Source: Saccoglossus kowalevskii (lineage: Eukaryota; Hemichordata; Enteropneusta; Harrimaniidae). Taken from it: a DNA stretch of 24,667 nucleotides. The notes below the pieces were generated by a model. That model was not told the origin of the DNA and made no database searches. It was given only the letters and a program-made list of their open reading frames with translations. Shown here piece after piece: positions 12,309 through 24,667 of this stretch. Position numbers and translations under genes: made by a program. The stretch spans positions 416,188-440,854 of the forward strand of contig NW_003106596.1 of NCBI RefSeq assembly GCF_000003605.2, written 5' to 3'. Within the stretch, counting starts at the first letter, position 1. Each line of letters begins with the position of its first letter.

Positions 12309-13308
12309 NNNNNNNNNNNNNNNNNNNNNNNNNNNNNNNNNNNNNNNNNNNNNNNNNNNNNNNNNNNNNNNNNNNNNNNNNNNNNNNNNNNNNNNNNNNN
12401 NNNNNNNNNNNNNNNNNNNNNNNNNNNNNNNNNNNNNNNNNNNNNNNNNNNNNNNNNNNNNNNNNNNNNNNNNNNNNNNNNNNNNNNNNNNNNNNNNNNN
12501 NNNNNNNNNNNNNNNNNNNNNNNNNNNNNNNNNNNNNNNNNNNNNNNNNNNNNNNNNNNNNNNNNNNNNNNNNNNNNNNNNNNNNNNNNNNNNNNNNNNN
12601 NNNNNNNNNNNNNNNNNNNNNNNNNNNNNNNNNNNNNNNNNNNNNNNNNNNNNNNNNNNNNNNNNNNNNNNNNNNNNNNNNNNNNNNNNNNNNNNNNNNN
12701 NNNNNNNNNNNNNNNNNNNNNNNNNNNNNNNNNNNNNNNNNNNNNNNNNNNNNNNNNNNNNNNNNNNNNNNNNNNNNNNNNNNNNNNNNNNNNNNNNNNN
12801 NNNNNNNNNNNNNNNNNNNNNNNNNNNNNNNNNNNNNNNNNNNNNNNNNNNNNNNNNNNNNNNNNNNNNNNNNNNNNNNNNNNNNNNNNNNNNNNNNNNN
12901 NNNNNNNNNNNNNNNNNNNNNNNNNNNNNNNNNNNNNNNNNNNNNNNNNNNNNNNNNNNNNNNNNNNNNNNNNNNNNNNNNNNNNNNNNNNNNNNNNNNN
13001 NNNNNNNNNNNNNNNNNNNNNNNNNNNNNNNNNNNNNNNNNNNNNNNNNNNNNNNNNNNNNNNNNNNNNNNNNNNNNNNNNNNNNNNNNNNNNNNNNNNN
13101 NNNNNNNNNNNNNNNNNNNNNNNNNNNNNNNNNNNNNNNNNNNNNNNNNNNNNNNNNNNNNNNNNNNNNNNNNNNNNNNNNNNNNNNNNNNNNNNNNNNN
13201 NNNNNNNNNNNNNNNNNNNNNNNNNNNNNNNNNNNNNNNNNNNNNNNNNNNNNNNNNNNNNNNNNNNNNNNNNNNNNNNNNNNNNNNNNNNNNNNNNNNN
13301 NNNNNNNN
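12309..13308. other. Assembly gap (1,000 Ns)
   Basis: There are exactly 1,000 consecutive Ns. The round number suggests a scaffold gap of placeholder or estimated length. Any open frame drawn across it is an artefact. Distances across this point should not be trusted. Confidence 0.99.
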
Positions 13309-19870: not shown

Positions 19871-20119
19871 ATTGTGGCGAAAAACTGTTCGGCTATGTGT
19901 TAACATCGCCGCTAATTATAGATTATAGATGCATGTTGGCCAACATTGCTGATTTAACATTTTAACAATCAGGATTTTGAATATTAATTGAATTCAGCGG
20001 TTAGACAGGTTATTTGTTAAAAATTAGAAATACTCCAAATAGTCACTTAATGTGCGCTTAATTTATTTATTTATGTCAGGTAGTTGGGGGTTATCTATTT
20101 TAGATATGAAAATATGAAT

Positions 20120-20150
20120 TTAATTTCACTTTATTTTTCCCAATTTTCAG
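20120..20150 (+). other. Splice acceptor of the TRIM exon
   Basis: A pyrimidine-rich tract (TTTATTTTTCCCAATTTTCAG) ends in AG at 20149-20150, 23 bases before the ATG. The sequence upstream of it is A/T-rich and intron-like. The in-frame open stretch that begins further up at a TTG (20084) is therefore most likely intron, and an untranslated 5' exon must lie upstream; I could not locate it. Confidence 0.65.
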
Positions 20151-20173
20151 ATTCAACCAATAACCCTCTCATA

Positions 20174-21416
20174 ATGGCCAGCAATATTGGAGCCACGTCA
20201 CACAAGCAACTTATGGACGATATTGATAAGAAAATCCTTCTTTGTCCTATATGTCAAGAAAGATTCACATCACCAAAGATATTACCATGTGTTCATACAT
20301 TCTGTGAGAAATGTCTGAAGTCGTGGGTTGAAAAGAAACATGGTCAACTGACTTGTCCATCTTGTCGAAAACCACACGCCGTTCCTCCAGGTGGTGTCAG
20401 AGCACTAAATAACAATCTGTTTGTAAACGAGATGCTGGAAATGTTCTGTAACGTCAAGATTGGTCAAGGTGTGTTGAAGTGTGATGTGTGTGCATCTGCA
20501 GCCTCGTTCTGGTGCAAAGACTGCGCCGAGTTTGTTTGTCAAGATTGCAGTGTACCACATAATCGTATGCGAGTTACGAAAAACCACAAAGTGATCACAG
20601 TAGAGGAGTACCAAGAATTAGAGAAATCTGATCAGCGTCATCTCATCCGACCACGATTCTGTACAAACCACCCTGACAACCAGCTGGAGTTATTCTGTGA
20701 TTTGTGTCAAGTTACAGCTTGCATAAAGTGTGGTATGATCGATCATAAAGGAATCGATCATAAAATGATATCCATGGGAGATGCCGTGAATAAATATTCT
20801 CCTAATTTACATAGTCTTACAGATAAACTGGGAAGAGCAGTGACGTCACTGAATTCATGTAAAGATAAACAGGAACAAGTAAAAAAACAGCTCAAACGTA
20901 AACAAATATCAGTAGAACAAGAAATAAAGCAACACGCAGCTAACATTATTAAACGTGTAAAACAAGAAAAGCAGAGACTTCTTGCCAAGGTGACTGAGAT
21001 ATGTGGTAAGAGAGAAAGAATTACAGGCACAGATGGAACACATCGAGTTGGATTTAGGACGAGCAGAAAGTATGCAGTCTTACGCTACCAACTTTCTTCA
21101 CCATGGCAACCCAGCTGATATTCTATCACAAAAACAGAATTTAGAAGAAGGACTGATGGAGTTAGGACATACATTCCTAATAACGCAGTATGAAATAGGA
21201 ACAGACATTAAATTCAAATTTCAGGAAAGTGTTTCACCACATACGTTATCCATTGGTGAAGTAAACTGTGAACGTACAGAGAGCCCCCCTCAAAGAGAGG
21301 TTGAATGTAAGTCCGAAGTTATCACTGGAAACATGCCACATGGTACGATGAAGAATAGTGTTAATCAATGGGGCGCAATATGCATCGATTACAATATCCC
21401 GGATGGTGTTCAAGGG
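20174..21416 (+). CDS. TRIM2/3/56-like RING, B-box, coiled-coil E3 ligase exon, frameshifted
   Basis: The start is ATG 20174 with A at -3 and G at +4. RING (C3HC4): C24, C27, C39, H41, C44, C47, C61, C64. B-box 1: C103, C106, C114, C117, C122, C125, H129, H138. B-box 2: C163, H166, C175, C178, C183, C186, H191, H196. A charged coiled coil follows from about residue 205. All zinc ligands are present, so the N-terminal half looks intact, as expected of a cytoplasmic ubiquitin ligase. Near 21008-21017 the frame shifts by +1. The uncorrected frame ends at a stop at 21118 (314 aa), while the family-typical sequence (HGNPADIL block, then an IKFKFQ linker) continues in the other frame to a splice donor. 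The shift lies in an AGAGAGAAAG tract and is explained by loss of one AG. It may be a pseudogenising mutation, an allele or an assembly error. The filamin/NHL part usual in this subgroup is absent from the window. Family identity is secure; the subfamily is inferred. Confidence 0.9.
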
Positions 21417-21422
21417 GTAAGA
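21417..21422 (+). other. Splice donor after the TRIM exon
   Basis: GTAAGA follows CAAGGG and closes the open frame just before an in-frame TAA at 21429-21431. Good donor consensus here suggests the coding sequence continues in a further exon. None was recognised before the window ends, so that exon is either outside the window or lost. Confidence 0.5.
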
Positions 21423-21959
21423 CACATATAACCAATATATAATCACCATTGCTACATATTCATTACATGATGCACGGTTTCACAACTATCTTAATTACTG
21501 TATGTATTATTTTTTCTGGGAAACATGTGCAGTACAAATCGCGATTACCGACAGACATGATGTTTTGATTTTGCGCAACGGGCGCGTCCAGGACAATAAT
21601 ATAAAAAGTCAAATTACCCCGCCATTAGTATCCAAAGTGTTGTTTCCTTTACAGATAAACTGAGTAAATGATCTCTCTAAAATATTTAAATTATAGACGC
21701 GGACACGTACGAGTACAATATTTCCACTGCTCTGTCATAGTTACGAATGTGGTAGCAATTCTATTTTGTTATCATTGTTACACATACACACACTCACATA
21801 TACACAATTTATTTCAATTAAAATATTATGATTAAACCCTGACATATCTTTAGAGTGCTATAACGATACTCACGACACATTTCCACAAAACATATTTCAG
21901 AATAAATAACTTTGTTGATGTCCGTCCTCATTTCTCACATTTGAGATTCGGCATTGCAA
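21423..21959. other. Intron or 3' flank of the TRIM exon
   Basis: AT-rich with no supported frame. An AATAAA hexamer lies at 21901-21906, directly after an acceptor-like CATATTTCAG. It could serve as a poly(A) signal if the message is not spliced at 21417, but nothing else supports that. Confidence 0.4.
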
Positions 21960-22570
21960 GTTTTCAGCTCCGCTGTCGACTTTGTCGAGCGGAGCTTATC
22001 ATATGAGTGATTGCCCGTCGTCGTCGTCTGTCGTCCGTCTTTCGTGTCAACTTTTTACTTTTTCGACTTCTTCTTGGAAATTACAAGCCTGAATGCTTTG
22101 ATACTCGGTGTACATGTACCTTGGGTGGACCTTCTAATTCTCTAATTTTGGTGAACATTTGTGTTATTTTTGGTAAAAAGTGATATTTTTGACTTCTTTT
22201 TAAAAATCGTAAGTCTGATTGCTTTGATATTACACATATAGGTACGTAATGTAAACCTCTCTCAGATTAGTTCATTTTGTGATGATATCTTTAATTCTTT
22301 AACTTTGATGAGTATTTTTGTCATTTTTGGTAAAAAGTGATATTTTCGACTTCTTGTTAAAAACCGCAAGTCTGATTGCTTTGATATTACATATATAGGT
22401 ACTACATGTGAACCTCTCTCAGATTTTTTTCATTTCGTGATGATATCTTCAATTATCTAATTTTGATGGATATTTTTGGTAAAAAGTTGTATTTTCGAAG
22501 TCCGATTGCTTTGATACTATACATATTATTCATTTTCTAATGATATCTTCAGTTCTTTAATAGAAATGTG
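21960..22570 (+). repeat. Dispersed repeat B, copy 2, with ~3.5 tandem units
   Basis: It starts with a hairpin (AGCTCCGCTGTCGAC/GTCGAGCGGAGCT, 21966-21996, with a 2-base difference between arms), then a CGTCGTCGTC stretch. Imperfect tandem units follow. Each runs through CGACTTCTT, a run of A, AAGTCTGATTGCTTTGATA, TAGGTAC, CTCTCTCAGATT, TGATATCTT and TTTTTGGTAAAAAGTGAT. GACTTC (or GAAGTC) landmarks at 22065, 22191, 22348 and 22497 give unit lengths of about 126, 157 and 149 bp. The last unit is truncated. The structure resembles a non-autonomous dispersed element with internal minisatellite units. Confidence 0.8.
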
Positions 22571-23050
22571 CATTGCTAACAGCGTAGCTATCTCGCAGAC
22601 AGGCTGCTTGTTTGTGATATCCTGAATTATCCAAAAGCATTATAATGCGCTTGTTGGATTTATTGAAGATATTATTCCACAACTGTAAACCACAATTAAA
22701 CGGAGACAATTCTGTATTGAAAATAGACAAAGAATATTTGTATTAAATTGTAAGATGTTGTTTAGCAGTTACTTACTAAAGTTTACCAAATTGTCGATTA
22801 GAACGTGAAAATATCGTTAACAGTGATTAGCTTTTCATGGTTAATTATTACAAATCAAATACAATTAACATCACTGATACAGCGCCATCTATTACATTAC
22901 ATAGTTGTAAAGCACTTGACGTGATCAATTTGCAATCAACATAATTTACGATTACTATCACCAGGGTGTGATGTTATCTCCCCACCTTAATTAATTGTTT
23001 GTCTCAAATTATGTCTAAAATGTTTCTCAGAATAAAATTGTTTTTGTTAC
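22571..23050. other. AT-rich non-coding DNA, no gene seen
   Basis: Nothing recognised apart from a short inverted pair ATCAC/GTGAT near 22958-22973. Confidence 0.6.
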
Positions 23051-24244
23051 CGGATAATGTACTACAAGTATATTTTCACAACTATTATTGTATTGCCATT
23101 TCCACTCCTGGCATTGTTATAACCCGTCCGTATACTATTATTGTCATGATATTTGAACTACTCATATCATATTAATATTTCTAATAATAGTGTCGCATTG
23201 TTACTTCCATTACTTGCATCTTAGTTATCATATTACTATTATTATCAGTCTGTTACTTTCACTACTAGTAGCTTGTTGACATTTGAAATAATAGTATCAT
23301 ATTGACACGTTCCCTACTAGCATCGTATTGACGCATACGGTATTAGTATTGAGTACTAGAATTGATACTTTCATTACTTATGTCTGAGTAATTCTAATAC
23401 TTAACAGTACTTGCCTGATACTTTCGGTATTAGTACCGTATAAATGTTCTAACTACTAGTATCGTGTTATTTATTTCATTACTTTATTTTAGAAAAACTA
23501 TTTAATTACTTGTGTTTGCAATAATGTTACTACTAGTAAATGTTTTGTACCTTTACCACGAGTATCGTATAAACATTCACACTAGAAAGTAGTTCATGCA
23601 TGTTCATATTGTGTCGTATTGATATTTTCATTACTTGTATATTAGTAATAATACTGCTGAAAAAAATTGCAAGATTCATTATCGTATGAATGCTTACAAT
23701 AATAATATGGAATTGATATTTTTGCTGTATCTGTCTGATACTTTCACTACCAGTATTGTGTTGATACTCATACTACTTATATTGATACTTTCACTATTAG
23801 TATCTAATTGATACATTTTTACTGTGTCTCCCTGATACTTTCACTACTAGTATTGTGTTGATACTCACAATACTTATATTGATAATTTCGCTATTAGTAT
23901 CGAATTGATACATTTTTACTGTATCTGTCTGAAACTTTCACTAACAAAATTGTGTTGATACTCACACTACCTAAGTATATTGATACTTTCACTATTAGTA
24001 TCGAATTGATACATTTTTACTGTATCTGCCTGACACATTCACTACCAGTATCGTGTTGATACTCACATATTGTTACTTTCACTATTAGTGTCGTATTGCT
24101 ATTTGATAGTATTTCAAATGATTTACTATATTGTATTGCAGCTTTCAATGCTAGTTGTACATTGTTTAAACTATTAATATTATCTCCCTGCCACTTTTCA
24201 TTAATTGTATCTGCGTATTAGTTTTACTACTCGTATTGTATTTA
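23050..24244. repeat. Degenerate minisatellite with ~97-bp higher-order units
   Basis: The region is built from variants of a roughly 24-bp motif of the type TTGATACTTTCACTATTAGT. Between 23713 and about 24105 four motifs are arranged as a longer unit that repeats about four times. Unit starts at 23713, 23808, 23905 and 24006 give periods of 95, 97 and 101 bp, the last lengthened by a small insertion. To the left (23050-23713) the motif is more diverged and irregular. No open frame runs through it. Confidence 0.85.
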
Positions 24245-24356
24245 TAGAGAGAGAGTCAAGGGTCACGACTAGGCTGTTGTTGCGTTCACGTCGCTCTCAA
24301 AAACTATCAGTATTTTACAAGTTTAAAAAGCCAAAACTTCAGTATCTGCACAAGAC

Positions 24357-24509
24357 ATGGACTGTAAGTGTATCATCTGTCAAATCGTGTGTTTGTGTGA
24401 AGATGGAAATCTCAATAGAGCTATTTCGAGTGCGTGTTGGTTGTTTCACTCAACGTGTCAAGACAACAAAGGATCGCCATTATCGTTCATGGTCAAGGTC
24501 AGATCATGA
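24357..24509 (+). CDS. Small Cys-rich ORF overlapping the 2A-like ORF
   Basis: This 50-codon frame starts at ATG 24357 and ends at TGA 24507-24509, in a different frame from the 2A-like ORF that starts inside it. The N-terminus is strikingly Cys-rich (CKCIICQIVCLC), with further Cys at 27 and 34 and a His at 31, loosely like a small zinc-binding knuckle. No family is recognised. It could be an upstream ORF that tunes initiation at 24403, the displaced start of the same protein after a frameshift, or chance. A GTAAGT donor-like hexamer at 24364 lies within it. Confidence 0.25.
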   Translation: MDCKCIICQIVCLCEDGNLNRAISSACWLFHSTCQDNKGSPLSFMVKVRS

Positions 24510-24667
24510 CATTCACCTTGTAGCGATCGCTATACGGTTAGTTCTGATCGCATTATTAATAGTATCGGGCGATGTTGAAGTGAATCCAGGCCCACAACCA
24601 ACAACCAGACAAACAACATTGGCATTTGGAAATGGTAAGGATAAAGATGGGCATGCTGCGTCGGCAT
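24403..24667 (+). CDS. 2A-like peptide-containing ORF, 3' incomplete
   Basis: ATG 24403 opens a frame of 88 codons that reaches the window edge without a stop. The first ~38 residues are basic and polar. A hydrophobic segment follows (about residues 39-54), then GDVEVNPGP, with the 2A core D57-V-E-V-N-P-G-P64 complete. In 2A peptides the ribosome skips the Gly-Pro bond, here between G63 and P64. The product would be a 63-residue leader and a separate downstream protein starting with Pro. Beyond the motif the chain is polar; RQTTLAF faintly recalls a PCNA-interacting motif but lacks its second aromatic residue. The hydrophobic run directly before the 2A core could act as a signal sequence when skipping fails, as reported for some sea urchin 2A proteins. 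A GGTAAG near 24632 could be a splice donor if this is a host gene. Confidence 0.65.
   Translation, partial: MEISIELFRVRVGCFTQRVKTTKDRHYRSWSRSDHDIHLVAIAIRLVLIALLIVSGDVEVNPGPQPTTRQTTLAFGNGKDKDGHAASA
24571..24594 (+). other. 2A-like ribosome-skipping motif (DVEVNPGP)
   Basis: All invariant positions of the D(V/I)ExNPG|P consensus are present, preceded by Ser-Gly and a Leu/Ile-rich stretch as in active cellular 2A sequences. Skipping would occur at codons 24589-24591 (Gly) and 24592-24594 (Pro). Confidence 0.8.

Follow-up and report, generated by a model that had tools for sequence, protein, structure and literature searches.

The right end of the analysed DNA, a stretch of 24,667 nucleotides from Saccoglossus kowalevskii (contig NW_003106596.1; hereafter the window), carries a complete StopGo/2A peptide near the start of an open reading frame. 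Most likely this is the start of a LINE-type element, a real but ordinary example of a kind that has already been described. Specifically, we consider it highly probable that the window ends within an APE-type non-LTR (LINE) retrotransposon, in its 5' part; the element runs rightwards and lies beside or in TA-rich repeats (Table 1). A leader of some 63 residues ending in the 2A would form the beginning of its first ORF. During translation, the nascent ...VEVNPG would prevent formation of the Gly-Pro bond, the leader would be released and translation would resume from Pro. The downstream product would then mostly be made without the hydrophobic leader; it would be an ORF1 protein or, with lower probability, the endonuclease-reverse transcriptase itself.

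Table 1 Features at the right end of the window (positions count from its first nucleotide).
Feature	Position	Strand	Remarks
TA-rich degenerate tandem-repeat region	23065..24240	.	considered the flank that the element lies in or adjoins; core array 23706-24067
Presumed 5' leader of the element	24247..24402	+	starts at GAGAGAGAG; boundary presumed from the GC step
Overlapping upstream ORF, other frame	24357..24509	+	50 residues, 7 Cys; ATG with G at -3 and G at +4
Start of the 2A-bearing ORF	24403..24666	+	88 complete codons, open at the window end; ATG with A at -3 and G at +4
Hydrophobic run	24517..24567	+	residues 39-55, Arg45 inside
StopGo/2A core DVEVNPGP	24571..24594	+	residues 57-64
Residues after the 2A, predicted start of the downstream product	24595..24666	+	24 residues, hydrophilic

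An earlier note on this DNA had reported a complete D-V-E-V-N-P-G-P core directly after a hydrophobic segment, and our analysis confirmed it: the core occupies residues 57-64 of the frame opened by ATG 24403, behind a run at residues ~39-55, and the residues ahead of it, IRLVLIALLIVSG, are strongly hydrophobic. NPGP is found only once in a six-frame translation of the window, apart from the 1000 N at 12309-13308, which cannot be read, and a first-order Markov model of both strands predicts 4.2e-6 occurrences of D[VI]ExNPGP by chance. A degenerate DNA pattern for DVExNPGP with up to two mismatches had one match in the window, and 0 of 100 shuffles contained any. From its ATG, the frame stays open to the end of the window. 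By itself this openness is weak evidence, because a Markov model of the same 264 bases also left the frame open in 106 of 5000 resamplings, and it is the motif and its context that carry the case. One possible reading of these resamplings, of the window ending at this very place and of the searches in viral_contigs, genome_contigs and phages, which yielded no confirmed relative, could be that a chance motif lies in non-coding or long-dead sequence without function. However, with so few cores expected and an upstream context that fits too, we regard such a coincidence as very unlikely, although the sequence may be a decayed copy of a genuine element.

The region from 24247 to 24667 gave a z of -0.90 for RNA structure, with 15 of 100 shuffles folding equally well, and Rfam returned 0 matches at gathering scores. 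Besides that, a Cys-rich frame starting at ATG 24357 overlaps the start of the 2A frame. This upstream ATG may reduce initiation at 24403, may mark a decayed copy, or may have no meaning and be due to chance.

The peptide agrees well with the described grammar of StopGo/2A sequences. Its core DVEVNPGP falls within the definition (D/G/C/N)(V/I)ExNPGP (PMC12846837). The same study describes two L-rich upstream motifs of RNA viruses, motifs 2 and 6, which end in (A/S/C)G before p12, have D at p12 and prefer G at p11 and S at p15; an example of motif 6 was active in reticulocyte lysate (PMC12846837, Li et al. 2026). Judged by eye, the window context fits this L-rich class: the canonical core is preceded by a hydrophobic hexapeptide, LLIVSG, which places G at p11 and SG ahead of D at p12. 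The one departure from the two motifs is V at p15 instead of the preferred S, and unlike the viral examples the 2A of the window lies near an N terminus and in animal DNA. Since the L-rich context is matched with this single departure, skipping of the Gly-Pro bond is likely as far as motif and context can tell. By analogy with the 2As in PMC12846837 and PMC4981915, the break would be expected between Gly (24589-24591) and Pro (24592-24594).

In addition, we scanned genome_contigs, in which each of 84,980 prokaryotic species is represented by one genome, and viral_contigs with a wide pattern consisting of four residues with T at the second codon place (Leu, Ile, Val, Phe or Met), any residue, Gly and D[VI]ExNPGP. 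The scan recovered four loci in genome_contigs (L001-L004; ~0.12 expected at even base composition) and 0 loci in viral_contigs. All four encode RVT_1 (E 6.9e-30 to 8.4e-36), and 3/4 also encode an endonuclease family; for L002, RVT_1 alone was reported by Pfam. The hydrophobic residues and the Gly shared by these loci are not independent observations, because the pattern demanded both, but it demanded neither reverse transcriptases nor an early position of the 2A. In L001 and L004, the 2A is part of a separate first ORF of 359 residues and of at least 491 residues (open at the contig end), respectively; in L002 and L003, it is part of a single ORF (1153 and 1077 residues). An open frame of 84-102 residues precedes the core in each of the four, and the distance from ATG to core ranges from 8 to 99 residues, compared with 56 in the window, where the 2A likewise sits early in what would be a first or only ORF.

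Over the 2A, L002 is the closest of the four loci, having 14/19 residues in common with the window, and GDVEVNPGP is identical in L004 and the window; we found no likeness worth naming between the window and the four loci beyond the 2A. A tblastn search with the six proteins of L001-L004 against the window gave nothing below E 1 except the 2A (E 0.001 to 0.089), as would be the case for an element that continues beyond the right end of the window. One record bears the title of a mussel (Bathymodiolus brooksi) gill symbiont, and the other three are metagenome-assembled genomes. The four contigs, filed as bacterial or archaeal, are probably animal host DNA contaminating those assemblies. The recovery of four such loci from contigs filed as prokaryotic underlines that reverse-transcriptase elements with an early 2A are easily met.

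These loci bear on the suggestion of the earlier note that the frame may be a retrotransposon ORF1 leader. The comparison argues for it, with a reverse transcriptase and an early 2A at every locus recovered by the pattern; however, neither a reverse transcriptase nor an endonuclease was seen in the window itself, and these domains would lie to the right of 24667. The D[VI]ExNPGP core, the L-rich context and the location near the beginning of a first or single ORF, all shared with L001-L004, are features of known 2A-bearing non-LTR retrotransposons, whereas the known part of the window element ends before any reverse transcriptase or endonuclease. The 2A-bearing clades of non-LTR elements include CR1, L2, Rex1, Crack and Ingi. 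Odon 2013 (Mol Biol Evol 30:1955) is said to have described the 2A in non-LTR retrotransposons. The occurrence of 2As in such elements is also stated in PMC11512398 and PMC4981915.

With respect to the downstream product, the endonuclease match of L003 begins 8 residues after the core and sequence similar to it begins, by eye, ~10 residues after the core in L002; a hydrophilic stretch follows the core in L001 and L004. As 24 hydrophilic residues also follow the core in the window, comparable to L001 and L004, an ORF1-type product is somewhat more likely than a single ORF, but because the window ends 24 residues after the core, this preference is a weak one. The ORF1-like proteins of L001 and L004 matched no Pfam family at E<=0.001 and none above cut-off at E<=1, and no PDB chain at E<=0.01. 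Inspection by eye alone suggests a PHD-like Cys/His pattern downstream of the 2A in L004.

Under the preferred reading of a LINE-type element, the window provides a further case in which a probable mobile element opens with a hydrophobic leader coupled to a StopGo peptide. The role of this leader could lie in targeting, or it could serve only the 2A in the ribosome exit tunnel. The leader comprises ~63-64 residues, with 37 polar residues (8 R/K, 5 D/E) preceding the hydrophobic run. The best Kyte-Doolittle mean of 15 residues before the core is 3.11, at residues 40-54 (with approximate scale values), and a plain residue sum for residues 39-55 amounts to -2.33 (calculated without positional weights and on an approximate scale).

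A role in targeting has a precedent in Strongylocentrotus purpuratus, where 14 N-terminal 2As of 26 residues were counted among 87 NLR entries (Roulston et al. 2016, PMC4981915). Of these, 12/14 are predicted signal sequences and one was tested; an N-terminal 2A of 26 residues from a sea-urchin NLR was shown to skip, and blocking the skipping directed a reporter to the Golgi (PMC4981915). NLR proteins with a 2A inside their N-terminal region are mentioned there too, so that a looser form of this arrangement is conceivable for the window. Based on this precedent, the window could hold the first exon of a host gene, for example an NLR-type immune receptor, whose 2A signal splits the product between the cytosol and the secretory route. 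The window resembles the sea-urchin signals in the hydrophobic run that leads into D[VI]ExNPGP near the N terminus, and the splice-donor-like sites GTAAGG at 24635 and GTAAGT at 24364 leave room for a spliced host gene. However, the sea-urchin 2As, as described in PMC4981915, are 26 residues long and located at the very N terminus, whereas the window has a 64-residue leader with a polar head, a run at residues 39-55 and an Arg inside that run. Furthermore, Pfam found no family match in the 2A ORF, and with it no NLR domain, over a frame that includes only 24 residues past the 2A. An NLR-type gene was present in 0/4 comparison loci, and NACHT gave no match in their six proteins. A host gene of this type is hence unlikely, and the host gene with dual targeting that the earlier note had proposed finds little positive support, which comes from the two donor-like sites.

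Regarding the leader itself, a cleavable signal peptide is unlikely and a signal-anchor is possible. Dual targeting by the leader is at best faintly suggested, because the run starts ~38 residues in and holds Arg45, unlike the 26-residue 2As of sea urchins. The 15 residues of highest hydrophobicity ahead of the core adjoin it in L002 and L004 but form part of the predicted N terminus in L001 and L003 (start codons being assigned mechanically throughout), and with these mixed positions the four loci are not decisive on leader targeting. In one conceivable scenario, the leader serves as a signal-anchor: the smaller share of the protein, be it of the element or of a host gene, that escapes skipping would be tethered to the ER membrane, and the skipped majority would be cytosolic, possibly tuned by the Cys-rich ORF at 24357. 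We consider this scenario quite unlikely; if true, it would mean that dual targeting by a 2A extends beyond the NLR genes of sea urchins.

StopGo peptides are mainly viral (PMC12846837), and GDVEVNPGP appears in the entry of a tortoise picornavirus in a table of PMC8623073. The 2A could accordingly stem from the polyprotein of an endogenous RNA virus copy, either picorna-like or dicistro-like. However, it is located 57 residues from a plausible ATG, and the picornaviral 2As described in PMC4981915 and PMC11512398 lie deep in polyproteins. Pfam gave no viral family above cut-off, the match to Calici_PP_N in another frame staying below it (E 0.093, 12 bits vs a cut-off of 24.2), and viral_contigs gave no confirmed relative, which makes a virus copy extremely unlikely. 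A DNA pattern for GDVEVNPGP likewise had 0 matches in viral_contigs. More generally, relatives of the 88 residues were confirmed neither among 33 pattern stretches in viral_contigs nor among 286 stretches in genome_contigs, and phages showed no match at E up to 1. One PDB row, a designed protein at E 2.6, was taken as a chance match.

The LINE-type element would be flanked on its left by TA-rich repeats, for which Tandem Repeats Finder delimited the tandem core listed in Table 1. In many steps between 23065 and 24096, though not in every one, the likeness of 24-mers to this core is elevated; between 24097 and 24216 it is no higher than in shuffles, with a single further rise at 24217. Because of this drop and single rise, the right edge of the repeats is uncertain and lies between ~24096 and 24246. 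GC content amounts to 0.29 for 23001-24241 vs 0.43 for 24247-24667, and based on this step in composition and the GAGAGAG start we infer an element boundary near 24247. The step also counts among the arguments for the LINE-type reading. No second copy of 24241-24667 was found in the window by blastn, where the best other match covered 23 bases (E 0.03).

Besides the putative element, the window contains a TRIM-type ORF (RING + B-box) of 344 residues on the + strand at 20084-21118, with a zf-B_box match of 5.5e-13 and TRIM3 and TRIM2 as best PDB rows. Owing to this ORF, the window reads as animal DNA. An ORF of 142 residues at 21003-21431, on the + strand and in another frame, overlaps the right end of the TRIM-type ORF. 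Altogether, the window holds 86 stop-to-stop frames of >=55 aa (six span the N run); 12 of the 86 were put to Pfam, among them two TRIM frames (whole or part), and nothing besides the TRIM frames reached cut-off. The N run comprises exactly 1000 positions and represents an assembly gap or a withheld stretch. A second tandem array, with a period of ~157, 2.2 copies and 86% matches, is located at 22135-22478.
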